Shown: positions 26,321 through 39,544 of the stretch, piece by piece | Layout of the letters: every line of letters begins with the position of its first letter | How positions within the stretch are numbered: position 1 is the first letter of the stretch | Source: an uncultured Bacteroidales bacterium | Lineage (GTDB): Bacteria > Bacteroidota > Bacteroidia > Bacteroidales > UBA932 | Length of the DNA: 64,000 bases | Reading direction: 5' to 3' | Assembly (NCBI GenBank): GCA_944323245.1 | Contig: CALURT010000004.1 | Span: forward strand, 1-64,000 | Program-made: the position numbers and the translations under genes | The notes under the pieces: model-generated | What the model saw: the letters and a program-made list of their open reading frames with translations, nothing else | The model's database searches: none | Told to the model about the DNA's origin: nothing

Positions 26321-28027
26321 ATGGTTTTCAGGGATATATACGGTATCCTTCCGGCGGCTTTCAGAAAAAGGGGAGTCGGAGTTGCCCTGTCCATATTTCT
26401 GAGAGCTGTCCTTGACTTTGCCGGAGTCGCCGTACTTGTTCCCGTCCTTGCCGGTCTTTTGGAAAAACGCGAGGATCCCATGTCAGTGTTGCCGGTGGCT
26501 CTCGGCGCCTTGGGCTTTATCGTATTGAAAGGAGTTGCAGTCACCTTCCTTACCAAATTCAGAAGCAGGTACGTCTTTTCCCTTTATTCGGAGTTGTCCG
26601 GGCAGGTGCTGGAAAGGTTTCTCCGGAAAGGGCTTCTGTTTATCAGACAGTCTGACAGCGTGGATCTTGCCAACAAGGTCAATGCCGTCACCATGGTCTT
26701 CGCATCGGGAGTGATATTAGCCTTGCTCAACATCATGTCCGCCCTGATTCTCCTGACAATCATTCTTGCCGCTCTCTTTGTCTACGATGCCGTTTCCACT
26801 TTGCTGCTCATGGCGGTCATAGGTCCGCTGATGGTGGGTTATTCCTGTCTGATAAGGCGCAGGATGAAGAATCTCGGTGCGGAGGAAAATACGGCGAGAA
26901 AAAAACAGGTGCGGAGCGTATTCGACCTGTTCAGGGGCTATGCGGATTATTCCGTCAACGATGCGTTCGGATATCAGATAGAGAGGTTCGACACTGCGGT
27001 GAAAAGCGTCGGCAACGTCAGACTCCGCACTGAAAGCTGGTCTGCGGTTTCGTCAGGATTCATGGAAACGGCTGTCATACTTTCGATTATAATTCTGATG
27101 TTGATGTCGTTTTCCTCCTCATGGGAAATTTCCATGACATTCGGGGTCTTCGCCTTGTCCGCATTGAAAATCCTCCCGGCCGTAAGGACGGTAGTGTCGG
27201 GCTGGCAGTCCGTCCAGAGTTCGGAATACAGTCTGGACATTTTGAAGGACATCCTTTCGGACTCCGGGGCTGCGTCTTATCCTGTTTCGGAGGACTGCAG
27301 GGAACCATTGATATTTTCCGATGAAATATCGCTCAGGAATGTCTCTTTCAGATATCCCGGGTCAGACAGGTACATCTTCAAATCCCTTGACCTCACAGTC
27401 AGGAAAGGCGAATATGTCGGTATCAGAGGCAGTTCGGGCATAGGCAAGACGACCCTGTTCAACATAATGATGGGCTTTTATTTCCCGGAAGAGGGCGGAG
27501 TCTACATAGACGGTGAGAAACTGACTCCGGACAACGTCCGTTCATGGCAGCGGCAGATCGGCTATGTGCCTCAGGACATCTTTCTCGTGAACGGTACATT
27601 CGTAGAAAACATAGCATTCGGTGTTTCTCCTGAAAATGTCGACAGAGACAGGATAGACGGGATATTGGAGAGGGTCGGGCTCAAGCAGTGGACAGACTCC
27701 ATGCCGCAGGGAATCGATACGCAGATAGCGGAAGCGGGAAATACGGTGTCGGGAGGCCAGAAGCAGAGGTTAGGCATAGCAAGGGCATTGTACAAAGGCG
27801 CTTCCGTGCTGTTTTTCGATGAGGCCACCTCGTCCGTAGATGCCGCTGCGGAAAATGAAATAAACGCTTTTATAAGGGAATTGTCGGCTGCCGACGGAGA
27901 TCTGACCGTAATCGTCATCGCTCACAGGCAGGAGACATTGGATTCCTGCAAAAGGATAATAGATATAGAAAAACTACCGCTGAGGAGCAGAACGCGTTCT
28001 GCGACGAGCCCCCGGCGAGGGGGATGA
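26321..28027 (+). CDS. ABC transporter, fused permease-ATPase (half-transporter)
   Basis: The 568-aa protein has six transmembrane helices in residues ~20-290 and a C-terminal nucleotide-binding domain: Walker A GSSGIGKTT (~372), Q-loop GYVPQDI, signature SGGQKQR, Walker B VLFFDEA, H-loop IAHR. It lacks a C39 peptidase domain, so it would not cut leader peptides itself. The gene 26054 upstream is PqqD-like and the two downstream are HPr-kinase-like and S26-like. The last ~15 residues (from about LPLRSR) are encoded by repeat element A, so the original C-terminus has been replaced. Confidence 0.9.
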   Translation: MVFRDIYGILPAAFRKRGVGVALSIFLRAVLDFAGVAVLVPVLAGLLEKREDPMSVLPVALGALGFIVLKGVAVTFLTKFRSRYVFSLYSELSGQVLERFLRKGLLFIRQSDSVDLANKVNAVTMVFASGVILALLNIMSALILLTIILAALFVYDAVSTLLLMAVIGPLMVGYSCLIRRRMKNLGAEENTARKKQVRSVFDLFRGYADYSVNDAFGYQIERFDTAVKSVGNVRLRTESWSAVSSGFMETAVILSIIILMLMSFSSSWEISMTFGVFALSALKILPAVRTVVSGWQSVQSSEYSLDILKDILSDSGAASYPVSEDCREPLIFSDEISLRNVSFRYPGSDRYIFKSLDLTVRKGEYVGIRGSSGIGKTTLFNIMMGFYFPEEGGVYIDGEKLTPDNVRSWQRQIGYVPQDIFLVNGTFVENIAFGVSPENVDRDRIDGILERVGLKQWTDSMPQGIDTQIAEAGNTVSGGQKQRLGIARALYKGASVLFFDEATSSVDAAAENEINAFIRELSAADGDLTVIVIAHRQETLDSCKRIIDIEKLPLRSRTRSATSPRRGG

Positions 28028-28210
28028 GAGGGGGTGGCGCCCCTTAACAAGTCGGGAGCGGTTTATGAGAATGTCCGGTGGACATTCGAAAGCGAGCAGG
28101 GTCGCTACAGCGACTGGGGATTAAGAAGAAGTGGGATTTCGTAGAAATCCTTAACGACGGTTCGACGAATTCTATAATCCTGAGCAACATAAATTCGTCG
28201 AATTGATGTT
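27975..28210 (+). repeat. Multi-hairpin repeat element, copy A
   Basis: Successive small hairpins share blocks with copy B (37808-38022): GCAGAA/TTCTGC (27987-28002), CCCCC/GGGGG (28009-28023), GTCGCT/AGCGAC (28101-28114), GGATTTC/GAAATCC (28134-28150), and the terminal TTCGACGAATT/AATTCGTCGAA (28161-28202). Copy A also carries GAATGTCC/GGACATTC (28069-28087), absent from B. The left end lies inside the ABC transporter gene; the right end is 16 nt before ATG 28226. Confidence 0.85.
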
Positions 28211-28225
28211 AAATATAGAAAAAAT

Positions 28226-29101
28226 ATGATGAAGAAAATAAAAATAGCCGGTTTCGTGATAGGAATCTCGGGAGACAATTTCTGCAGGTTCATCGCTTCG
28301 GCAGGACGTGCATTCGGGGATTTTCTTACCGATGAGGATGCGGACTTTTCCGTGACTGAGGATTTGCCGGATGCGTCCGTAGCTCCGTACATGAATGAGA
28401 AAGCATTGTATGAAATAAGTTTCGAGGGGATCGGTTGCAGGTTCGGGAGATGCGGAGGACAAATATGGTTCACATCCGATGACAAGGCTGCGTCGGAGTC
28501 GCATCTGCTGCTTTGGCGTCCTGGCGATACGACAGTCCATGCTACGTCTTCGATTTGCAGCCCGACCCTTACGAGGTTTGCATTGTGGATGGCGGTCAAC
28601 ATGCTGCTTGTCGGCAGGAAATGTGCGGCGGTACACAGCTCGGTCAATGTGTCCGGTGGTTCGGCCGTAATGTGCCTCGGAGAATCCGGAACCGGGAAAA
28701 GCACGCATACGAGACTCCTGAGGGAAAATTATCCCGACAGTTTCCTGCTCAACGACGACAGCCCTTTCGTAAGGGCGTTCGAGGACGGCCGGATTATGGT
28801 TTACGGTTCTCCATGGAGCGGAAAGACGCCGTGCTACAAGCAGCTTGCCTTCCCGTTGAAGGCTGTCATACGCCTGAGTCAGGCTCCGTACAACAGAATC
28901 AGGGCTCTGTCCCCTCTGCAGGCTATAGGCGCCGTCCAGCCATCCCTGCCTCCGGCTTTCAATTATGACGATGAAATGTCCGACATGTCGTGCGCCCTTG
29001 TGTCCGATATCGTATCCAAAGTCAGGTTCTATCATCTGGAATGTCTGCCTGACGATGCCGCTGCCCGACTGTCTTACAGTACCGTATTCGATGAAAAATG
29101 A
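28226..29101 (+). CDS. HPr kinase/PEPCK-like P-loop protein
   Basis: The 291-aa protein has Walker A GESGTGKST (~157) and FLLNDDSPFVRAFEDG, equivalent to the HprK catalytic Asp region, with YGSPWSGKTPCY further on. It lacks the HprK N-terminal domain and no HPr is nearby. HprK-like kinases occur in lasso-type RiPP clusters, where some phosphorylate the peptide. Here it sits between the PqqD/ABC genes and an S26 peptidase, with its stop overlapping the next start. Substrate is unknown. Confidence 0.8.
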   Translation: MMKKIKIAGFVIGISGDNFCRFIASAGRAFGDFLTDEDADFSVTEDLPDASVAPYMNEKALYEISFEGIGCRFGRCGGQIWFTSDDKAASESHLLLWRPGDTTVHATSSICSPTLTRFALWMAVNMLLVGRKCAAVHSSVNVSGGSAVMCLGESGTGKSTHTRLLRENYPDSFLLNDDSPFVRAFEDGRIMVYGSPWSGKTPCYKQLAFPLKAVIRLSQAPYNRIRALSPLQAIGAVQPSLPPAFNYDDEMSDMSCALVSDIVSKVRFYHLECLPDDAAARLSYSTVFDEK

Positions 29102-29558
29102 AGCAGTAAAGAGCCTTGTCGTCCCGAACGATGAATTTTTCTCCCGTGTCATTGAAATATTGGAGGCGGGGGAGACCGTCACATTCACGGTCAAGGGATG
29201 CAGCATGTATCCGTTCATGCGCAGTGACAAGGACGCAGTCTGTCTGAAAAGGTATGACGGAGGTGTCTTGCGGAGGGGGGATGTCGTGCTTTTCCGTTAC
29301 AGAGGCAGGTATATACTGCACCGGATTGTAAAAGTGTCCGAAGGGATGTCTTGTGAACTGCAGGGTGACGGGAATCTTTCCGGAAGGGAAAGGGCCGTAC
29401 CGGATACGGTCTGCGGCGTCATGACGGGAAGAATATCCCCTTCGGGAAAAGAATGGAAATGTTCGTCCCTGTCGTGGAAGACCTGTTCGGCATTATGGAT
29501 GTTCCTGCGGCCTTTCAGACGTATCATGTTGGCCGTACTGAGAAGAATCTACCGCTGA
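29091..29558 (+). CDS. S24/S26-family peptidase (signal peptidase-like)
   Basis: The 155-aa product contains TVKGCSMYPFMRSDKDAV, the Ser-containing SMxP motif of S24/S26 peptidases, then RGDVVLFRYRGRYILHRIVKV, where a general-base Lys or His would lie. A basic hydrophobic C-terminus (LWMFLRPFRRIMLAVLRRIYR) may attach it to the membrane. ATG 29091 overlaps the HprK-like stop by 11 nt and fits the family N-terminus; the longer frame from 28965 would run in the shadow of the upstream gene. It may process an exported peptide. Its 3' end overlaps pth by 10 nt. Confidence 0.8.
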   Translation: MKNEAVKSLVVPNDEFFSRVIEILEAGETVTFTVKGCSMYPFMRSDKDAVCLKRYDGGVLRRGDVVLFRYRGRYILHRIVKVSEGMSCELQGDGNLSGRERAVPDTVCGVMTGRISPSGKEWKCSSLSWKTCSALWMFLRPFRRIMLAVLRRIYR

Positions 29559-30127
29559 GGCGGCTTGGTGTTTACTATATTCATTGCCCTGTCAGGGCCT
29601 GCCGTGGCGAAAATCCGGATTCCCTCGATGACGCGTTCGCAGATATCCGGAACTTCCTTTTTCTCATCGTCGCTCAGTTCGCCGAGGACGAAGTCTATCT
29701 GACCTCCTCTCCGGAAATCATTGCCGATACCGACGCGGATTCTGGCATAGTCCTGTGTCCCGAGGAGTTCGCTGATGTTCGTAAGACCGTTATGTCCGCC
29801 TGCACTTCCGTTTTTTCTCATCCTTATGGTCCCGAAAGGCAGGTTGAGGTCATCGGAAATCACGATCAGGTTTTCGAGAGGCAGTTTCAGTTCGGCCATC
29901 CAGTATCTGACAGCCTTTCCACTGAGATTCATGTAGGTGGACGGCTTCAGGAGAATGAATTTCTTGCCTTTGTATGATATGGTGGCGGTACTTCCGTAGC
30001 GTCCCGATACAAAAAAAGTATCGGATGCCCTGACCCAGGCATCCAATACCATAAAACCCATATTGTGTCTTGTATCAGCATATTCAGCGCCGATATTGCC
30101 CAATCCGACTACCAAATAGCTGTCCAT
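29549..30127 (-). CDS. pth: Peptidyl-tRNA hydrolase
   Basis: Pth releases peptides from peptidyl-tRNA. The 192-aa protein has the family motifs LVVGLGNIGAEYADTRHNMGF (catalytic His), KPSTYMNLSGKAV, and SDDLNLPFGTIRMRKNGSAGGHNGL. It is encoded 12 nt after the L25 gene, a common bacterial pairing. It converges with the S26-like gene and overlaps it by 10 nt at the 3' ends. Confidence 0.97.
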   Translation of the reverse strand: MDSYLVVGLGNIGAEYADTRHNMGFMVLDAWVRASDTFFVSGRYGSTATISYKGKKFILLKPSTYMNLSGKAVRYWMAELKLPLENLIVISDDLNLPFGTIRMRKNGSAGGHNGLTNISELLGTQDYARIRVGIGNDFRRGGQIDFVLGELSDDEKKEVPDICERVIEGIRIFATAGPDRAMNIVNTKPPQR

Positions 30128-30138
30128 GACTCCCTATG

Positions 30139-30720
30139 TTATGCGTTCTGCGCTGCAGCAGCCTGTGTAGTGGCACGGGTTGCCCTTACGGAGCAGATGA
30201 TGGTAGCTTTCGGAGAAACTATCGTAACGTTGTCGTAGTGAAGGTCTCCGGCCACAATCTGTTTGCCGATTTTCAGGGATGTGATGTCCACCTCGATGTC
30301 ATCAGGCAGTTTGTCAAGCATGGCGCTGATGCGGAGCTTGCGGGATGAAACGAGAAGTTTGCCACCGAGTTTCACGCCTTCGGAGTGTCCTGTAATCTTG
30401 ACAGGAACATCGATTACCACCGGTTTTTCGGAAGAAACGGCGAGGAAGTCCACGTGAAGGGCTTCGTCGGTTACAGGATGCCACTGGATTTCATGCAACA
30501 CTGCCTGGTATTTCTTTCCGTCGCTCAGTTCGAGGTCGATGATGTATGAATTCGGAGTGTGTGTAACGCTTTTGAGATCTTTTGCACTTACTGTGAAAAG
30601 TACGTTCTCCATTCCGAGACCGTAAAGATTGCAAGGTACAAGTCCTTCCTTGCGGATAGCCTTTACTACGGCTTTGTTGCCTGCCTCACGGATGAGGCCT
30701 TTCAATTCAATGTGTTTCAT
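30139..30720 (-). CDS. rplY: 50S ribosomal protein L25 (Ctc-type)
   Basis: The 193-aa protein binds 5S rRNA. It has the L25 N-terminal domain (RKEGLVPCNLYGLG; VLHEIQWHPVTDEALHVDFLAV) plus the C-terminal TL5/Ctc domain (GVKLGGKLLVSSRKLRISAM...DDIEVDITSLKIG) and an Ala-rich tail. A TATATTTG -7 box (minus strand, 30799-30806) lies 78 nt upstream. Confidence 0.96.
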   Translation of the reverse strand: MKHIELKGLIREAGNKAVVKAIRKEGLVPCNLYGLGMENVLFTVSAKDLKSVTHTPNSYIIDLELSDGKKYQAVLHEIQWHPVTDEALHVDFLAVSSEKPVVIDVPVKITGHSEGVKLGGKLLVSSRKLRISAMLDKLPDDIEVDITSLKIGKQIVAGDLHYDNVTIVSPKATIICSVRATRATTQAAAAQNA

Positions 30721-30798
30721 TTCGATAAATTTGAAAATGTGTTACTCAGTCCGTTTCCGGACCCCATTGCACCAAAAGCTTTCGCTTTTTCGGGGCTG

Positions 30799-30806
30799 CA
30801 AATATA
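30799..30806 (-). promoter_or_regulatory. L25-pth promoter -7 box
   Basis: The minus strand reads TATATTTG, an exact match, in a 144-bp gap between the C11 peptidase and L25 genes. The leader would be about 70 nt. Confidence 0.6.
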
Positions 30807-30864
30807 GACAATTATTCGATAAAAGAAAATTTAATTCGAAGAAATCCGGGATTTGACGTTCCCA

Positions 30865-32169
30865 TTACCTTACAAACTGCGTATCGGTATTCCATTTCAA
30901 TTCCTTGTAGAATCCGTCGAGGGTGTCGTTCCCGGCTGACGGAAGGTACATGCTGAGACCTGAAAACGTGAGCACATCCCCCACACTCAGGAGTGAAGGC
31001 GTATTTGCGTGGTACGGCACGCATTCATCCAGTATGGCCTCCAATTCGGCAGCCTCATCGTCCGTAATTCCCAACTTGTCAATGATGTCGCCGAAATCAT
31101 AGAACCACGGGGTCGGGTCCAGTTTCTGGACAATGGCTGCGTTGACGTAATTGATCTGGCTTCTGTATTTTTCGAAAATCCCCTTGCAGAAAACGGCCAA
31201 TGCATCCAATTTCCGGCAGTCTACCAAAGAAATCGTCGCAGACCTGTAGACGCCGCTCTGGGAGTTGTAATGGTCATAGAAATCCTGCGCCACCTTAAGC
31301 GGTCCGCCGGCTCCGGCCATCATCAGCCTTTGGATTATCGTAGTGTAGTCCATGCCGTCCGCCAATACCTGCGAAGACGAGAATACGAGCACGTTGCAGG
31401 CGTCCTTCAGTTCGTAGGCCACTTCAATGCCGCCCATAAGGCAGGCGTCGAATATTATGTAGTCGAGGCGGAACGGGATGGCGGCTGCAAAATCCTTCAG
31501 CTCCATTTCGTACGTATTCGTGTAACTTCCCACATACTGCGCCCCTATGCTTTTGACATCGGGGAGCATGTCCCTTTCATGCTGCGTCCTGAGTCCGTCA
31601 TGGAAGAAATTGACATGTGGGTCGTATGTGTTGACGGCGGACTCCCTGCCTGCACCGCTGCCTGCAGAGAAGCGTATGCTTGTAGTGGCGGAACCGTAAT
31701 ATCCCTTCGGAAGCCAGCCGGTGGCGTGTGACGAAAAGATGACTCCTGTCTCTTCTGAAGGATAGTTTTCGTGTATGTACCGGAGCACGTTGCCGAAGGT
31801 TTCCGCAGATGCAGAGCATGTGGTCTCGGGGTAGGTCAGGATGGTGTCCCTGACGATGTCGAGCTCCCGGTTTCTGTACACCTTTATAAGATAGGGTGAA
31901 GTCGGGGTGCTGTAATCTCCTGTCGCTGCCGTATGATGGGCGAAGATGAAAAGATGGTCGTTGAAAGAATCTTCCCACGGTACGAATCCGTTGCAGATGT
32001 CCTCTATGTCTTCCTTGAAATATCCGGTGAGATTGTTGTATCCGGCCGAATACAATATCACCGTCTTCGAGGTATGCAGAGGCAATTCCCCGACGGTCTT
32101 CGAACATGACAGCATGCATGTCGCCAACACGGATGCGGCGGCGAGAAATCCGTATCTTTTCAGTTTCAT
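30865..32169 (-). CDS. Clostripain-like (C11) cysteine peptidase lipoprotein
   Basis: The 434-aa product has a lipobox (CMLSC, Cys ~22) and the C11 dyad: His in FSSHATGWLP (~148) and Cys in IIFDACLMGGIEVAYEL (~244). C11 peptidases cleave after basic residues and are common in gut Bacteroidetes. The promoter (TACATTTG, minus strand 32194-32201) faces the divergent DPP III-like gene. Confidence 0.88.
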   Translation of the reverse strand: MKLKRYGFLAAASVLATCMLSCSKTVGELPLHTSKTVILYSAGYNNLTGYFKEDIEDICNGFVPWEDSFNDHLFIFAHHTAATGDYSTPTSPYLIKVYRNRELDIVRDTILTYPETTCSASAETFGNVLRYIHENYPSEETGVIFSSHATGWLPKGYYGSATTSIRFSAGSGAGRESAVNTYDPHVNFFHDGLRTQHERDMLPDVKSIGAQYVGSYTNTYEMELKDFAAAIPFRLDYIIFDACLMGGIEVAYELKDACNVLVFSSSQVLADGMDYTTIIQRLMMAGAGGPLKVAQDFYDHYNSQSGVYRSATISLVDCRKLDALAVFCKGIFEKYRSQINYVNAAIVQKLDPTPWFYDFGDIIDKLGITDDEAAELEAILDECVPYHANTPSLLSVGDVLTFSGLSMYLPSAGNDTLDGFYKELKWNTDTQFVR

Positions 32170-32193
32170 TTCAATCCCGTCAAATCAATCGCA

Positions 32194-32221
32194 CAAATGT
32201 ACGGATATTTCGCTATATTTG
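32194..32221. promoter_or_regulatory. Divergent overlapping promoters, C11 peptidase and DPP III-like gene
   Basis: TACATTTG on the minus strand (32194-32201) and TATATTTG on the plus strand (32214-32221) are 12 bp apart and diverge. Each promoter's upstream region covers the other's -7 box, so polymerase binding should be mutually exclusive. Confidence 0.6.
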
Positions 32222-32247
32222 CGTCCGGAACATTCAAAAAAAGAAAA

Positions 32248-34254
32248 ATGATAAAATTTGGAAAAATGTTGGCAATGGCGGGAGCGGCTGCGGCTTTGGC
32301 TTCATGCGGCACGAACGGAAAAGGTCAGGACGGCGATTTCAAATATCTTATTGACGAATTTGCCGATATCAAGATCATGAAATACCGGATCCCTGGATGG
32401 GACGGGCTTACCCTGCAGCAGAAGGAGTATGTCTATCATCTCGGCGAGGCTGCCAAATACGGCAGGGACATAATCTGGATGCAGAACTGCAAGGAAAACC
32501 TTCACGTGAGGAAGGTCATTGAGGCAATAATAGAGGATTATGACGGAGACAGGAATTGCGAGGATTTCGAAAAATTCATGGTCTATGCGAAAAGGGTCTT
32601 TTTCAGCAACGGAATCCATCATCATTATGCCGAAGACAAGTTCTTCCCTGAATGCTCCGAGGAATATTTCAGGACTTTGATGACTTCGGTCGGGCTGGAG
32701 GCCTCATGCGATGACATCCTGCCCGTAATATACGATCCGGACATATATCCGCAGAGAAAATCCATCGACAAGAGCAAGGACATAGTGGCTGCTTCCGCAG
32801 TCAATTTCTATGAAAACGTCACGAGGCGCGAGGCGGAGGCTTTCTATGCGGGAATGATTGACAGGAATGATCCGGAACCGGTTTCCTACGGTCTTAACAG
32901 CAAGCTCGTGAAAGGCGGCGACGGCGTGATACGGGAGGAAGTCTACAGAATCGGAGGTCTTTACGGCCCGGCGCTAGAAAAGATAACCGCCGAGCTTGAA
33001 AAGGCCAAGGCTGTAGCCGAGAACGAGACCCAGAAGCATTGCATCGACCTTCTCGTGGAGTATTACAGTACAGGCGACCTTGAACTTTGGGACGAGTACA
33101 ATATCGCATGGGTGAACGATACCCTCGGCACTGTGGATTTCGTCAACGGTTTCGTCGAGGATTACAATGATCCTCTCGGGCGCAAGGCCACATGGGAAGC
33201 TCTCGTAAATATCAAGGATCACGAGGCTTCGGAGCGTACTGAAATCATCAGTGCGAACGCCCAGTGGTTCGAGGACAATTCCCCTGTGGACAGCAGGTTC
33301 AGAAAACCTGTCGTGAAAGGCGTTTCGGCCAAGGTGATAAATGCCACAACATTGGCGGGGGACTGCTATCCGAGCACCCCGATCGGCATAAATCTTCCCA
33401 ATGCCGACTGGATCAGGAGGGAATACGGCTCCAAATCGGTGACTATCGCCAATATTACCCATGCCTACGATCTTGCTGCGCAGGAATCCCCGAACAGCAC
33501 TCTCAACGAATTCGCATGGTCCGAAGAGGAAATCGCCCGTTCCAAGAAATATTCTTCGCTGACGGATGAAATCCATACGGATTTGCACGAATGTCTCGGA
33601 CACGGTTCAGGACAACTGCTGCCGGGAACGTCCCAGGGTGCGCTCGGAGACTACAGTTCAACCCTTGAGGAGGCACGAGCAGACCTTTTCGGACTGTATT
33701 ACATAGCTGATCCGAAATTGGTGGAACTCGGCATCCTTCCTGACATGGAGGCCTACAAGGCTCAGTACGACAGTTATATCAGGAACGGAATCCTTGTTCA
33801 GTTCACCCGCGTGGAACTCGGACGTCCGAATACCGAGGCCCACATGCAGAACCGTAAACTGATAGCCGAGTGGTGTTATGAAAAAGGACTGAAAGACAAC
33901 GTGATAGAAAAGAAAGTCCGAGACGGCAAGACATATTTTGTCGTAAATGACTATGAAGCGTTGCGCGGGCTTTTCGGAGAACTTCTTGCCGAAGTCCAGC
34001 GTATAAAGTCCGAGGGTGATTATGAGGCAGGGAAGGCTCTTGTGGAAAAATATGCCGTGAATATCGACCCTGAATTGCACAAGGAAGTGAAGGAGAGGTA
34101 CGAGGCCCTTGCACTGAAGCCTTACGGCGGTTTCGTGAATCCTGAAATCGTGCCGGTGGAGAAAAACGGCAGGATAGTGGATTACAAAATAGAATATACC
34201 GACGACTATGTCGGACAGATGATGGAATACGGAAAGAAATATTCCACGTTGTAA
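32248..34254 (+). CDS. Dipeptidyl-peptidase III family (M49) lipoprotein
   Basis: The 668-aa protein has a short lipoprotein signal (AMAGAAAALASC) and the M49 metal site: HECLGHGSG (HEXXGH) and LEEARADLFGLYYI (EExRAD). M49 enzymes remove dipeptides from the N-terminus. ATG 32248 is chosen because the -7 box at 32214-32221 lies inside the longer frame from 32197, and the lipoprotein signal starts here. The gene at 19393-21015 is a distant relative with a shorter Zn motif. xerD begins 11 nt downstream. Confidence 0.88.
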   Translation: MIKFGKMLAMAGAAAALASCGTNGKGQDGDFKYLIDEFADIKIMKYRIPGWDGLTLQQKEYVYHLGEAAKYGRDIIWMQNCKENLHVRKVIEAIIEDYDGDRNCEDFEKFMVYAKRVFFSNGIHHHYAEDKFFPECSEEYFRTLMTSVGLEASCDDILPVIYDPDIYPQRKSIDKSKDIVAASAVNFYENVTRREAEAFYAGMIDRNDPEPVSYGLNSKLVKGGDGVIREEVYRIGGLYGPALEKITAELEKAKAVAENETQKHCIDLLVEYYSTGDLELWDEYNIAWVNDTLGTVDFVNGFVEDYNDPLGRKATWEALVNIKDHEASERTEIISANAQWFEDNSPVDSRFRKPVVKGVSAKVINATTLAGDCYPSTPIGINLPNADWIRREYGSKSVTIANITHAYDLAAQESPNSTLNEFAWSEEEIARSKKYSSLTDEIHTDLHECLGHGSGQLLPGTSQGALGDYSSTLEEARADLFGLYYIADPKLVELGILPDMEAYKAQYDSYIRNGILVQFTRVELGRPNTEAHMQNRKLIAEWCYEKGLKDNVIEKKVRDGKTYFVVNDYEALRGLFGELLAEVQRIKSEGDYEAGKALVEKYAVNIDPELHKEVKERYEALALKPYGGFVNPEIVPVEKNGRIVDYKIEYTDDYVGQMMEYGKKYSTL

Positions 34255-34265
34255 CGGTTCGGGAT

Positions 34266-35138
34266 ATGGATTGTCCGTACATTCTCGATGAGTACAGGGA
34301 TTATCTGAGAGTGGAAAGGTCCATGTCGGAGAATACCGTGTCATCTTATCTTTCCGATTTGCATTCTTTCTTCAAACATGTAGAATGTCCTCCGCAGGAA
34401 GTTTCTCCGGAGGACATAATTTCTTATTTTTCCGACAGGAAAAATATTTCCAAGAGGACGCAGGCCCGTGTACTGAGTTCCTTGCGCTCTTTTTTCGACT
34501 ATCTTCTTTCTGAAAGGAAAATCACCGACAATCCGTGCGACAGGGTGGACGCTCCCAAAATCGGGCGTTATCTTCCCGACGTCCTTTCCGTGGAGGAAAT
34601 AGATGCCGTCATTGCATCGGTGGATGAAAAGGACTGGACAGGAATCCGCGACAGGGCCATTCTTGAAGTCCTGTACGGTTGCGGTCTGAGGGTTTCCGAG
34701 GCCGTCGGGCTCAAATTGTCTGACATATTTTTTACGGAAGGTTTCGTCCGCATCGTAGGAAAAGGTGACAAGGAAAGGATCGTGCCTTTAGGTGAAATGG
34801 CTCAGAAAGCCCTTGAACGCTATATTGCCGTCAGGCCGCAGCCGTCCGGCTCCGATAACGAAGATGTGGTATTCCTCAATTTCCGGGGAGGAAGGCTGTC
34901 GAGGATTTCAGTGTTCAACATGGTGAAGAGGCAGGCGATGGCAGCAGGTATCCACAAGAGCATTTCACCGCATACGTTCCGCCATTCATTCGCCACCCAT
35001 CTTCTCGAAAACGGGGCTGACCTGCGGGCGGTCCAGGAAATGCTCGGACATGAGAGCATTCTTACCACGGAAATCTACACCCATATTGACAGGAGCGTAT
35101 GGCAGCGCACTATTCTCGACTGTCATCCGAGGAAGTAG
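34266..35138 (+). CDS. xerD: Site-specific tyrosine recombinase XerD/XerC-type
   Basis: The 290-aa recombinase has a SAM-like N-terminal core-binding domain ([21 protein letters not shown]) and the catalytic domain with Arg ([12 protein letters not shown]), [27 protein letters not shown] and Tyr (TTEIYTHI). XerCD resolves chromosome dimers at dif. XerD rather than XerC is a guess from overall look. No att sites or cargo lie beside it, so a housekeeping role fits. The 3' end overlaps tdk by 29 nt in convergent orientation. Confidence 0.9.
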
Positions 35139-35706
35139 CCGCCTGACGTGTCGCTTCGTTGTAGCAGTGGCGGCAGAGCGGTTCGTATGTGTCCTTTTCT
35201 CCGAGAACCACGAGCTTGTCATCCGACGAGAGTCTGTGGGAATTGTTTGCGAGACTTCCGCATTTGACACAGATCGCGTGGACTTTCTGGACGTCTTCCG
35301 CCACGGCCATCAGAGCCGGCATGGGCCCGAAAGGTTTTCCGGAGAAATCCGTGTCCAAACCAGCCACAATCACGCGTATCCCCCTGTTGGCAAGGGTCTG
35401 GGCCACCTCCACAATGGTGTCGTCGAAAAACTGTGCCTCGTCTATTCCCACTACGTCCACGTCGCTCGAAAGCAGAAGCATGCTGGCCGGAGTGTCAATG
35501 GGAGTGGAAGGAATGCTGTGCGAGTCGTGGGATACTACTGAATCCTCCGAATATCTTATGTCTACGGCGGGTTTGTAGATTTCCACTTTCTGATTGGCGA
35601 ACTGTGCCCTTTTCAGCCTTCTTATGAGTTCTTCCGTTTTCCCAGAGAACATTGAGCCGCATATTACTTCTATCGAGCCGGCTTTTTTTGTATATTCTAA
35701 AAACAT
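35110..35706 (-). CDS. tdk: Thymidine kinase
   Basis: The 198-aa type II thymidine kinase phosphorylates thymidine to dTMP. It has P-loop [19 protein letters not shown], and two zinc-binding Cys pairs (CVKCG, CRHCYN) in the lid domain. ATG 35706 ([15 protein letters not shown]) is used; a longer frame from 35829 only translates the repeat array. Three promoter-bearing repeat units lie directly upstream, unusual for this housekeeping gene. Confidence 0.95.
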
Positions 35707-35732
35707 TTCCTTAATTTTGTGGTTCGGCTCTG

Positions 35733-36098
35733 CAAATATACGCAGAAGCCGAGAGCAATGCAAGAGACGAGGGAATTTGCGAACAGGTTCGCAATATGAC
35801 CGACGGCTTTTGCAATTGCCGAGGCGCAACAGTATAAATGGCCGTCAGGCCAAATATACGCAGAAGCCGAGAGCAATGCAAGAGACGAGGGAATTTGCGA
35901 ACAGGTTCGCAATATGGCCGACGGCTTTTGCAATTGCCGAGGCGCAACAGTATAAATGGCCGTCAGGCCAAATATACGCAGAAGCCGAGAGCAATGCAAG
36001 AGACGGAGGGAATATGCGGACTGGTTCGCAATATGACCGACGGCTTTTGCAGTTGCCGAGGCGCAACAGTATATGTGGACACGAAGTGGCCAAAGATA
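35733..36098 (-). repeat. Tandem 118-bp repeat array with promoters for tdk
   Basis: Three units start at 35733, 35851 and 35969; the first two are 118 bp, nearly identical, and the third ~122 bp and diverged. Each begins CAAATATA, i.e. TATATTTG on the minus strand, and each has TTG exactly 20 bp further upstream (complement of CAA at 35761, 35879 and 35997). So each is a complete Bacteroidetes promoter aimed at tdk. A fourth -7 match (TATCTTTG, 36091-36098) closes the array. Each unit also holds the palindrome TTGCGAA...TTCGCAA. This array fills the gap between tdk and rsmI; nothing else is seen there. Confidence 0.85.
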
Positions 36099-36108
36099 AT
36101 ATTCAGTT

Positions 36109-36921
36109 ATGGTTAGGAAAAACACAGGAAGTCAGGATTCGGTGGAAAGGAATGCGGGAGCGGCAGGCCGGCTTTATATTGTGCCGACGCCTGTCGGGAA
36201 CCTTGACGACATGACATTCAGGGCAATCAGTGTCCTGAAGTCCGTCGACCTGATTCTCGCAGAAGATACAAGGACAAGTTCCGTCCTGCTCAGACATTAT
36301 GATATTCAGGGCCGTCTGCAGTCACACCACAAGTTCAACGAACACAAGACCGTGGAAATCATAAAGGAAAGGATTCTTGCCGGACAGAACGTCGCCCTTG
36401 TCAGCGATGCCGGGACTCCCGGTATTTCCGATCCCGGTTTCCTGCTTGTCAGGACCTGTGCCGAGGAAGGTATCGAAGTGGAAACCTTGCCGGGAGCCAC
36501 TGCCTTTGTCCCGGCCCTTGTAAGTTCGGGATATCCGTGCGACCGCTTCTGTTTCGAAGGTTTCCTGCCTGCAAAAAAAGGCCGGATGACACGCCTCGAA
36601 GAATTGTCCCGTGAGACGAGGACGATGGTTTTCTACGAGTCTCCTTACAGGCTTGTGAAGACATTGCAGCAGTTCGTCGGGGTTTTCGGAGCGGAGAGAG
36701 GTTGCAGCGTGGCACGTGAAATTTCGAAAATACACGAGGAGCATAGGCGCGGTCCGTTGTCGGACGTCCTGCAATGGTATTCGGAACATGAACCGAAAGG
36801 TGAAATAGTAATAATTGTGGAGGGAGCTCCCGAAAAAGGGAAAGTGAAGGAGGAAAAATCATGGAAGAAAAAAGAGGTGATGGAAGGAAGCGAAGGGAAT
36901 TGTCTGCATCTTCCAAAATAG
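36109..36921 (+). CDS. rsmI: 16S rRNA (cytidine1402-2'-O)-methyltransferase
   Basis: RsmI 2'-O-methylates C1402 of 16S rRNA. The 270-aa protein has the tetrapyrrole-methylase fold motifs LYIVPTPVGNLDDMTFRAI, AEDTRTSSVLLRHY, ALVSDAGTPGISDPG and LPGATAFVPALVSSG. The ~25-residue Lys/Glu-rich tail overlaps the next gene by 61 nt. ATG 36109 lies 10 nt after the repeat array; a plus-strand -7 box was not found, so its promoter is unclear. Confidence 0.95.
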   Translation: MVRKNTGSQDSVERNAGAAGRLYIVPTPVGNLDDMTFRAISVLKSVDLILAEDTRTSSVLLRHYDIQGRLQSHHKFNEHKTVEIIKERILAGQNVALVSDAGTPGISDPGFLLVRTCAEEGIEVETLPGATAFVPALVSSGYPCDRFCFEGFLPAKKGRMTRLEELSRETRTMVFYESPYRLVKTLQQFVGVFGAERGCSVAREISKIHEEHRRGPLSDVLQWYSEHEPKGEIVIIVEGAPEKGKVKEEKSWKKKEVMEGSEGNCLHLPK

Positions 36922-37805
36922 GGCTGATCGCTCTCGTATTTCTTGTAATAGGTTATCAGGCGGCCTTGTTCCTGCATCGTTCCGCCGTATTGAAAATTCT
37001 CAGTAACAGGGACCGTCCGGATACGGTATTCGTGATTGACAGGGTTCTTGCCGAACAGATTCTGAAAGAAAAGGAAATATCCGACCTCGGACGTGACACG
37101 TTCAGGTTTTCTTCTGTCGGAGGCGGCAACGCCATAGCAGTTACGAAAGAGACGGCACACACCCCGGAAATAAAGTCGGTCAGGGAAACCTATGCTCCTG
37201 AAAGGCGGGTCGAGACATTCAGGTTCAATCCCAATGAAATCCCGGTGGAGGGCCTTGTCAGGCTCGGTTTTTCCCGCAAACAGGCTGCGGCTATCGACAA
37301 TTACCGTCGCAAGGGCGGCAGATTCAGACGCAAGAGCGACTTCGCCAGGTCGTTCGTAGTCTCGGATTCTATTTACCGCAGGTTGGAGCCTTATATCGAT
37401 ATTCCGCTAGTGGATCTGAATGCAGCGGATTCAGCCGGTTTCGACGCTCTTCCGGGAATCGGCGGCCATTATGCGTCAGCCATGACGGAATTCAGGGAAA
37501 GGCTCGGCGGAAGTTATTCGTACAAGGAGCAGTTGATGGACATAAGAGGGTTCGACAGGGAAAGATTCGACGGGCTTTCGGATTTGATAGAAATTTCGTC
37601 TCCGAAGCCTTACGCTCTATGGACCCTGCCTGAAGATTCGTTGGAACTTCATCCTTATATCGGAACCTATGCGGCACATGGAATCATCCTCTTCCGGGAA
37701 AACAATCCGCGGGAGAAATGGACCGTGGCCGCACTCGACGCAGCCGGCGTACTGAAGCCCGGAATGGCCGAAAAGCTTTCCCGCTGCCTCATAGCCGCAC
37801 CGTAA
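36861..37805 (+). CDS. ComEA-like helix-hairpin-helix protein
   Basis: The 314-aa protein has one N-terminal transmembrane segment (~18-38, SKIGLIALVFLVIGYQAALF) and tandem HhH motifs: VEGLVRLGFSRKQAAAIDNY, then DLNAADSAGFDALPGIGGHYA (ComEA-type), and a partial third. ComEA-like proteins bind DNA in competence, but Bacteroidetes homologues with several HhH repeats are of unknown role. The start overlaps rsmI by 61 nt, suggesting coupling. Repeat element B follows the stop. Confidence 0.8.
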   Translation: MEEKRGDGRKRRELSASSKIGLIALVFLVIGYQAALFLHRSAVLKILSNRDRPDTVFVIDRVLAEQILKEKEISDLGRDTFRFSSVGGGNAIAVTKETAHTPEIKSVRETYAPERRVETFRFNPNEIPVEGLVRLGFSRKQAAAIDNYRRKGGRFRRKSDFARSFVVSDSIYRRLEPYIDIPLVDLNAADSAGFDALPGIGGHYASAMTEFRERLGGSYSYKEQLMDIRGFDRERFDGLSDLIEISSPKPYALWTLPEDSLELHPYIGTYAAHGIILFRENNPREKWTVAALDAAGVLKPGMAEKLSRCLIAAP

Positions 37806-37807
37806 AT

Positions 37808-38022
37808 ATAAATTCGTCAAGCGGTACGCTTTTACCGCAAAGGAGCAGCCTTATGGCTGCGACGAGCCCCCGGCGAGGGGGATGAGAGGGGGTGGCGCCC
37901 CTTGGAAAGGGGCTGTCGCTATAGCGACTGGGGTTTAAGATAGCGGGATTTCGAAGAAATCCTTAGCGACGGTTCGACGAATTACGTGATCCTGAACAAC
38001 ATAAATTCGTCGAACCGTCGCT
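37808..38022 (+). repeat. Multi-hairpin repeat element, copy B
   Basis: Same modules as copy A: GCGGTA/TACCGC (37821-37838), GCAGCC/GGCTGC (37845-37860), CCCCC/GGGGG (37867-37881), GTCGCT/AGCGAC (37915-37928), GGATTTC/GAAATCC (37946-37962), ending in a perfect 19-bp stem AGCGACGGTTCGACGAATT (37965-37983) with its complement at 38004-38022. ATAAATTCGTC also starts the element. The last stem overlaps the aldehyde dehydrogenase stop codon. It lies between two convergent genes. Confidence 0.85.
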
Positions 38023-39430
38023 ATTTCAAGAACATCCGGACCAATTTTTCGTGAAACCGCGTATATGGCTGGTAGCGCATCGGAAGGTCCATCCAGAACG
38101 GTTTGTCGACGATGCTCTTGAAATGCGAGAATGTTTCGAATCCGAATCTGCCATGGTAGGCACCCATTCCGCTTTCTCCCAAGCCCCCGAAAGGCATGTT
38201 TTCGGTGGCAAGGTGGATTATTGTGTCGTTCACGCAGCCGCCTCCGAAATGCAGCCGGCCCAACAGATGTCTTTTGGTCTTTCTGTCAGAGGTAAAAATA
38301 TAGGTGGCAAGCGGTTTCGGTCTCTGCTCGATGAATCTGACGGCATCTTCGAGGTTTTTCCATCTGATGACGGGCATCAGGGGACCGAAGATTTCTTCCT
38401 GCATTATACGGAAATTTCCGAGCCTGTCCTCATTTGCAGAATCCAATTCTCCGAGATCCAATATTGTCGGTTCTATTTTCAGCGATTCCGCATCACAGTG
38501 TCCGCCATGGATTGTTTTGGCGCCTTTGTCGGCAGCATCTTCGAGCGTTTCCCTGAGACGGTCGAAATGCTTGCGGTTGATTGTTTTTCCGTAATTCACG
38601 TTTGCCATGGCATCCCGTCCGAACATACTTTCAATTTCCGTGACGCATGAGTCCATGAATTTTTCTCCTACTGATTCGTGGACCAATACATAGTCGGGAG
38701 CGACGCAGGTTTGCCCGCAGTTGAGGTATTTGCCGAAGACTATCCTTCTCGCAGTTACTGCGATGTCTGCCGTAGCGTTGATGATTACGGGACTTTTGCC
38801 GCCGAGTTCCAATGTGACCGGGGTCAGGTGTGCGGAAGCCTTGGACATTACGAGCTTGCCGACTTCCTTGCTTCCGGTGAAGAAGATATAGTCGAACTTC
38901 CTGTCCAACAGGTCGGCGTTGACTTCCCGGCCTCCTTCTATTACGGCTACATGTCCGGGTGAAAAGGTGTTTGATATCAATTCCTTGATTATCCGGCTTG
39001 TGGCAGGGGAGTATGCGCTCGGTTTCAGTATGGCGGTGTTGCCTGCGGCCACGGCGCTTGCGAGAGGGCCGACTGTGAGCAGGAAGGGATAGTTCCACGG
39101 ACTCATGATGAGGACGTTGCCGTAAGGCTCCGGTATCATGTAGCTTCTCGCAGGGAATTGGGCGAGCGGAGTCCTTGCCTTGTGCGGTCTTGAGTATTGT
39201 TCTATGTGTCTTATGGCGTGTCCAAGTTCCGAAAGGACCATCCCGGTCTCGCACATATAACTCTCGAACCCGCTTTTCCCGAGGTCCTCCTTCAAGGCGC
39301 CGGCTATCCTGTCCTCCATGTCGAGAATGCCCTGCCTCAGGGCCTGCAATGTCCTCTTTCTGAATTTGACGTCAAGTGTCTTCCCTGAAAGGAAAAATTC
39401 CCTTTGCCGCTCAAGTATTTCCTCTGTCAT
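38021..39430 (-). CDS. Aldehyde dehydrogenase family protein
   Basis: The 469-aa NAD(P)-dependent enzyme oxidises aldehydes to acids. It has Rossmann motif FTGSKEVGK, catalytic Glu in TLELGGKSP and Cys in NCGQTCVAPDY. The fold pattern and C-terminal hydrophobic tail resemble the ALDH3 (fatty aldehyde) group. ATG 39430 is chosen because a -7 box (TAACTTTG, minus strand 39451-39458) overlaps the longer start at 39451. The stop codon lies in the last stem of repeat B. Confidence 0.92.
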   Translation of the reverse strand: MTEEILERQREFFLSGKTLDVKFRKRTLQALRQGILDMEDRIAGALKEDLGKSGFESYMCETGMVLSELGHAIRHIEQYSRPHKARTPLAQFPARSYMIPEPYGNVLIMSPWNYPFLLTVGPLASAVAAGNTAILKPSAYSPATSRIIKELISNTFSPGHVAVIEGGREVNADLLDRKFDYIFFTGSKEVGKLVMSKASAHLTPVTLELGGKSPVIINATADIAVTARRIVFGKYLNCGQTCVAPDYVLVHESVGEKFMDSCVTEIESMFGRDAMANVNYGKTINRKHFDRLRETLEDAADKGAKTIHGGHCDAESLKIEPTILDLGELDSANEDRLGNFRIMQEEIFGPLMPVIRWKNLEDAVRFIEQRPKPLATYIFTSDRKTKRHLLGRLHFGGGCVNDTIIHLATENMPFGGLGESGMGAYHGRFGFETFSHFKSIVDKPFWMDLPMRYQPYTRFHEKLVRMFLK

Positions 39431-39450
39431 GATTGCCGTATTTATCCACA

Positions 39451-39458
39451 CAAAGTTA
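39451..39458 (-). promoter_or_regulatory. Aldehyde dehydrogenase -7 box
   Basis: The minus strand reads TAACTTTG, an exact match 20 nt before ATG 39430. It excludes the upstream in-frame ATG as a start. Confidence 0.6.
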
Positions 39459-39479
39459 GCGAAAATCCCGGAAAATTAG

Positions 39480-39487
39480 TATATTTG
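39480..39487 (+). promoter_or_regulatory. Upstream -7 box, possible second SusC-operon promoter
   Basis: TATATTTG is an exact match. The first ATG after it (39489) opens only five codons, so it would drive either a long sus leader or a short RNA running through the CCGTTC repeats. Confidence 0.4.
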
Positions 39488-39544
39488 AATGATAAAGCCA
39501 ATCTGAGACCGTATGACTGTTCATGGTATTTCTGGAATTCATCT

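Follow-up and report, generated by a model that had tools for sequence, protein, structure and literature searches.

The locus raises the question of what a sequence built from consecutive small hairpins, present twice in the 64,000-nt stretch of uncultured Bacteroidales DNA analysed here (the window), might be doing directly at the 3' ends of genes. A preliminary description had reported two copies composed of common blocks in the same order, and these were recovered as matches of 47 nt (100%), 26 nt (92%) and 73 nt (89%). Chance is excluded as the source of the shared blocks, with an 18-nt seed expected 0.03 times in the window, and the repetition extends to the rest of the genome, where a DNA search with the element returned dozens of matches with E-values down to 9e-69. 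The exchange of stem sequence with pairing kept, to which the same description had drawn attention, is present as GCAGAA..TTCTGC in the copy near 28 kb and GCAGCC..GGCTGC in the copy near 38 kb. In the 38-kb copy the last stem pairs perfectly, as had been stated, over 20 bp instead of the 19 bp given.

The 38-kb copy (copy B of the preliminary description) occupies positions 37842-38023 of the forward strand and consists of a core followed by a terminal hairpin. The core (37842-37962) matched our core covariance model R1 with 135.3 bits and comprises five hairpins: H1 (GCAGCC/GGCTGC, 37845-37860), H2 (CCCCC/GGGGG, 37867-37881), H3 (CCCCTT/AAGGGG, 37898-37912), H4 (GTCGC/GCGAC, 37915-37928) and H5 (GGATTTC/GAAATCC, 37946-37962). 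Covariation was found at 5 of 7 pairs in helix 1, 4 of 5 in helix 2, 4 of 5 in helix 4 and all 7 in helix 5, and helix 3 is nearly invariant, with 99.8% paired. The terminal hairpin H6 (37964-38023) has the perfect stem mentioned above, scored 83.1 bits with our second model, R2, at 37961-38023, and contributes, as its 3' arm, the 3' terminal inverted repeat of the element. A remnant resembling this arm lies 5' of the core on the same strand (37805-37825, 81% identity to 37998-38018), and the resulting order of arm, core and H6 recurs at loci L119, L135, L142 and L151. The copy sits between two convergent genes, a helix-hairpin-helix protein gene upstream (36861-37805, forward strand; PF12836, E 5.9e-14) and an aldehyde dehydrogenase gene (38021-39451, reverse strand; PF00171, E 1.4e-87), whose stop codon (38021-38023) is formed by the last three nucleotides of the element. 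This H6 has TAGCG..CGCTA in place of TAACG..CGTTA; through the 3' change the aldehyde dehydrogenase stop is TAG and no longer TAA, with a compensating change in the 5' arm.

The 28-kb copy (copy A of the preliminary description, our L028) spans 27984-28212, also on the forward strand, with a core at 27984-28150 and H6 at 28151-28212, the stem of which is 81% complementary; an ATG follows 14 nt further on. The extra hairpin reported for this copy is a 49-nt module at 28051-28099, with the hairpin GAATGTCC GGT GGACATTC, inserted in the core where it takes the place of the H3 3' arm. The module occurs in 10 elements of the genome, two of which have it twice, and of an orthologous pair (L174/L117) only one copy has it, so that the suggested gain or loss of modules can be seen directly. 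Copies differ in the loop of the module hairpin, which reads either GGT or ACC (L113 near 2900, L240), as if the palindrome had been inverted. Placement at a gene 3' end, claimed for both copies, was evident here too: the upstream ABC-transporter-like gene (26321-28027, forward strand; PF00005, E 5.5e-33) runs 44 nt into the element. Its last codons and stop are supplied by the inserted sequence. The gene downstream (28226-29101, forward strand) gave a weak AAA_22 match below the cut-off. Neither window copy has an intact 5' repeat.

Such a repeat is present in complete copies of the family, which are about 235 bp long and run from a 5' hairpin, H0, through a linker and the core H1-H5 to H6. 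Their terminal inverted repeat is AACGTGAGTTCGATGAA; H0 bears the repeat TAACGTGAGTTCGATGAA, and the 3' arm of H6 ends in CGTTA. The sequence TAACGTSAGTTCGAYGAA occurs at both element ends and was counted at 94 sites with at most 3 mismatches, compared with 7 for the reversed control. R2 detected about 34 copies of the terminal hairpin in the genome, a core accompanying most of them. Three loci (L043, L058, L064) have H6 alone, four others (L026, L030, L041, L042) are type II elements with a different middle and the same ends, and lone H6 3' arms stand directly before ATGs at L056, L059, L060 and L062. At one site the genome G251 has a lone arm where G162 has arm, core and H6 (L233/L119), for which recombination between repeated arms is a simple explanation and insertion next to an older arm is another. 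The core was also found with other terminal sequences (L139/L144/L202, L140, L141, L143, and L145, where it is in tandem), and is therefore not tied to the IS982 ends described below; L139/L144/L202 is a core variant in antisense orientation at one orthologous site in three species.

The element is short, dispersed in many copies and without a transposase gene. Two contig ends of this genome start a longer element with the same terminal repeat, and relatives hold this longer element complete, at 1.04-1.07 kb with the same repeats (L212, L213); its protein is an IS982-family transposase (NF033520, E 1e-73). The assembly of the present metagenome-assembled genome includes only part of the IS982 element with these ends and lacks its transposase gene. 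Perfect 5-bp direct duplications flank 21 of 62 complete copies, where 1.7 are expected from shuffled flanks, and duplications of 2, 3 and 7-9 bp do not stand out. We had considered an IS630-type MITE with a 2-bp TA duplication on account of the TAACG..CGTTA ends, and rejected it with 2-bp flank identity equal to that of the shuffles and the 5-bp length standing out. G162 and G251 are sister species, and at several sites only one of them carries the element; at L118/L221 the empty site has a single AATAT, which is duplicated around the element at L118. At the 38-kb site, at least five relatives lack the element and have the same two convergent genes directly next to each other. Integron attC-like cassettes, a candidate suggested by hairpins before ATGs, were dropped once terminal inverted repeats, target duplications and empty sites had been found. 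The inverted repeats shared with IS982, the 5-bp duplications and the empty sites therefore define a family of IS982-type MITEs, very probably mobilised by an IS982 transposase, and there is good support for their insertion by this enzyme at A/T-rich sites between genes.

Of 250 species genomes of Candidatus Cryptobacteroides, a genus of uncultured gut bacteria within the Bacteroidales, 66 gave R1 matches to the core, and many of these 66 had at least 10 copies. Among 295 genomes sampled across the Bacteroidales, R1 matches were confined to the same genus except for one weak match (27 bits), and the matches listed by a GTDB pattern scan were all records of Candidatus Cryptobacteroides or of uncultured Bacteroidales. 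The homologues were recovered by the covariance model; a plain DNA search of relatives had matched 2 of 61 genomes, one of them the present genome. Rfam covariance models gave no match up to E 1 to window positions 27000-39500, and nothing was found in a scan of viral contigs for the IS end.

The covariance search, proposed in the preliminary description as a check, returned many copies with conserved pairing, and this pairing holds over more than 100 of them. Among 106 distinct core sequences, standard pairs made up 98.6% of pair cells, compared with 89.5% after shuffling; 22 of the 30 core pairs showed changes on both sides, and double-sided cells numbered 239, compared with 38 in the shuffles. 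When partners were shifted by one column, core pairing fell to 53-61%. Pairing in H6 was conserved to a similar degree (19 sequences), and compensatory changes thus maintain the terminal stem as well as all five stems of the core. RNAalifold offered an alternative pairing of CCCGGC with GCGACTGGG, which was set aside since H2 and H4 covary as separate hairpins. Because the core alignment had been fitted to the structure, a direct count in the stems is important. Among distinct hairpins there were 77 G·U pairs and 17 A·C mismatches with the outermost H6 pair excluded, and 79 and 26 with it included, in a count from which shared ancestry was not removed and of which a C-to-T bias on the sense strand could account for part. 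As the opposite strand would reverse these counts, they support the sense strand as the one that folds, and there is support for selection acting on the fold of the sense RNA. The sense core has 37% G and 22% C.

The position of the copies relative to genes was assessed at the best-scoring model matches, a choice in which decayed copies are under-represented and from which recognised orthologous duplicates were removed, with genes called by a hexamer score trained on the window. Sense orientation was seen in 64 of the copies between co-directional genes and antisense orientation in 6 (p 2e-13). In divergent gaps, 11 copies had their 3' end no more than 20 nt from a start codon and no copy had its 5' end so placed; four divergent gaps have a promoter-like TAnnTTTG motif 17-36 nt ahead of the element. 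A start codon was found within 15 nt of the element 3' end in 4 of 10 recent copies (complete, with perfect duplications), in 16 of 22 other complete copies and in 37 of 38 copies lacking the 5' repeat, fractions that use the first ATG past the element and so are looser than the called starts behind the figure for random sites; by called starts the fractions were 31/40 and 15/37, and random sites in co-directional gaps of the window lay within 15 nt of a start codon in 11% of cases (18% for A/T-rich sites). The difference between the recent copies and those without the 5' repeat (Fisher p 1e-4) is the basis on which we infer retention, and this gradient suggests that copies near start codons have been selectively retained and that insertion preference is not the only cause, though young copies are few. 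For orientation, recent copies were 8:2 in favour of sense and the oldest class 33:2, a difference that was not significant. The distance to the upstream stop codon varied from 0 to hundreds of nt, that to the next ATG was short, 21 copies were at convergent sites, and the downstream genes shared few families.

Based on these data, we consider it probable that this is a genus-restricted MITE family whose sense transcript forms a chain of hairpins, and whose copies have been kept as leader or intercistronic RNA where that RNA is least harmful or is helpful; we infer that the element RNA affects gene expression, and a regulatory role is possible. According to this explanation, an IS982 transposase would put copies into A/T-rich intergenic sites, and those copies would persist whose sense hairpins allow the following gene to be transcribed and translated. 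The compact, G-rich sense fold would leave only a short A/T-rich stretch ahead of the ATG, and the C-rich antisense strand would invite Rho-dependent polarity. Rho is favoured by RNA of C-rich, G-poor composition, and Bacteroidales of this lineage make little use of Shine-Dalgarno sites. The sense element may be tolerated in transcripts as one that does not load Rho and leaves the start codon accessible, and old copies without the 5' repeat would become the 5' leader or intercistronic region of the next gene. Against retention of this kind stands the antisense core variant at its conserved site in three species. If retention is indeed selective, the insertions show selfish DNA turning into gene leader sequence, and the sister species with filled and empty sites provide ready pairs for a comparison of expression. 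More tentatively, the core might be an independent RNA module that makes insertions ahead of genes harmless or beneficial, for instance by preventing transcription termination and leaving the start codon free, and that has been combined with several transposon ends and left behind as gene leaders, in effect a mobile supplier of 5' UTRs.

Several other explanations have to be weighed against retention of sense RNA. An ordinary selfish MITE, whose palindromes have a role only at the DNA level, in transposition, and whose position and orientation reflect only the insertion sites of the transposase, would likewise be mobile with inverted repeats and target duplications, its A/T-rich targets would resemble the stretch before start codons, recent copies already lean towards sense, and the small number of young copies leaves room for targeting by the transposase. 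We nevertheless regard this as unlikely: H1-H5 are internal and away from the ends and yet covary, the G·U/A·C asymmetry singles out one strand, closeness to the ATG climbs from fewer than half of the recent copies to nearly all of those without the 5' repeat, and the core is also found with other ends. A co-opted regulatory RNA, that is, a signal-sensing leader governing a regulon of downstream genes, would fit the covarying structure in 5' leaders and intercistronic gaps, the promoter-like motif upstream in divergent gaps and the conservation of the element at some orthologous sites. It is hard to reconcile with the few families common to the downstream genes, with sister species that differ in copy number and sites, and with freely variable loops in a core that is a simple row of hairpins and not a junction with conserved loops, and we consider it improbable.

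The preliminary description had also put forward an mRNA 3'-end stabiliser, and its suggestions of a mobile palindromic element and a structured RNA have fared better. A stabiliser, RNase target or terminator acting on the upstream gene, like some REP, ERIC and Correia elements, would account for the many copies close behind a stop codon and for the common convergent sites. The distance that stays constant is that from the element 3' end to the next start, with the upstream stop at variable distances, and together with the divergent-gap copies whose 3' end is at a start codon and the lack of a T run after the hairpins this makes such a function a poorer fit, to which we give little credence. 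Lastly, a TnpA_REP-type transposase had been proposed, that is, a REP/REPIN element moved by a RAYT enzyme; the family is palindromic, intergenic and multi-copy as this would require, but no Y1_Tnp (PF01797) match was found in the genome, the control genomes giving matches, and the direct 5-bp duplications and the ends held in common with a DDE-type IS982 element make this origin practically untenable.

Bacterial MITEs that fold in mRNA are known, and the present family differs from them in its host, its ends, its covarying hairpin chain and its position at start codons; we know of no bacterial MITE that combines covariation in nearly all stems, wobble pairs on one strand, a 10:1 sense bias and near-constant contact with a start codon. 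Compared with IS982 insertion sequences having the same terminal inverted repeat, the element lacks the transposase gene and its interior is unrelated and structured. Comparison with the following repeats was by anatomy and published papers, not by sequence. BOX of Streptococcus pneumoniae is likewise a modular MITE-like repeat, with variable internal modules and a predicted RNA structure, and is co-transcribed with genes (PMC3049150). Pneumococcal repeats are enriched downstream of genes (PMC3049150), whereas the present elements have their 3' end against start codons and show a strong strand bias. ERIC and Correia (NEMIS) are short palindromic MITEs in transcribed intergenic DNA that act through RNase E or RNase III sites, and in Yersinia the orientation of ERIC affects mRNA stability (PMC2229807); they differ from the present family, which has a 5-bp duplication and IS982-type ends. 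The BrickBuilt MITE of Porphyromonas gingivalis is also an intergenic MITE in the Bacteroidales, made of 23-nt tandem repeats, always intergenic at 49-591 nt from genes and with promoter activity (PMC4596501), in contrast to a chain of distinct hairpins a few nucleotides from start codons. REP, BIME and REPIN sequences are extragenic palindromes in many copies too; our element is longer, has inverted repeats and target duplications, and no RAYT gene was found in the genome. Nothing describing the Candidatus Cryptobacteroides hairpin MITE family was found in the open-access literature searched.

Several minor observations concern neighbouring or related repeats. L121 in genome G253 and L025 in the present genome are at the same locus and have proteins of 99% identity, and one of the two has core and H6 duplicated in tandem, a picture that points either to recent transfer or to very slow divergence. 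Another palindromic repeat, AGAGGTTGGCCCAAAAGG..CCTTTTGGGCCAACCTCT, is present in L043 of this genome (contig C8 near 42600), and a stretch related to it lies just upstream of the element in L007 (contig C21 near 19100). In the window itself, positions 35733-36087 hold a 118-nt unit three times in tandem, each ending near GGCCGTCAGGCC, the second and third units having 99% and 64% ungapped identity to the first. The GGCCTGACGGCC stretch of these units also occurs beside an IS982-type end on contig C8, and the unit is possibly a member of another repeat family.
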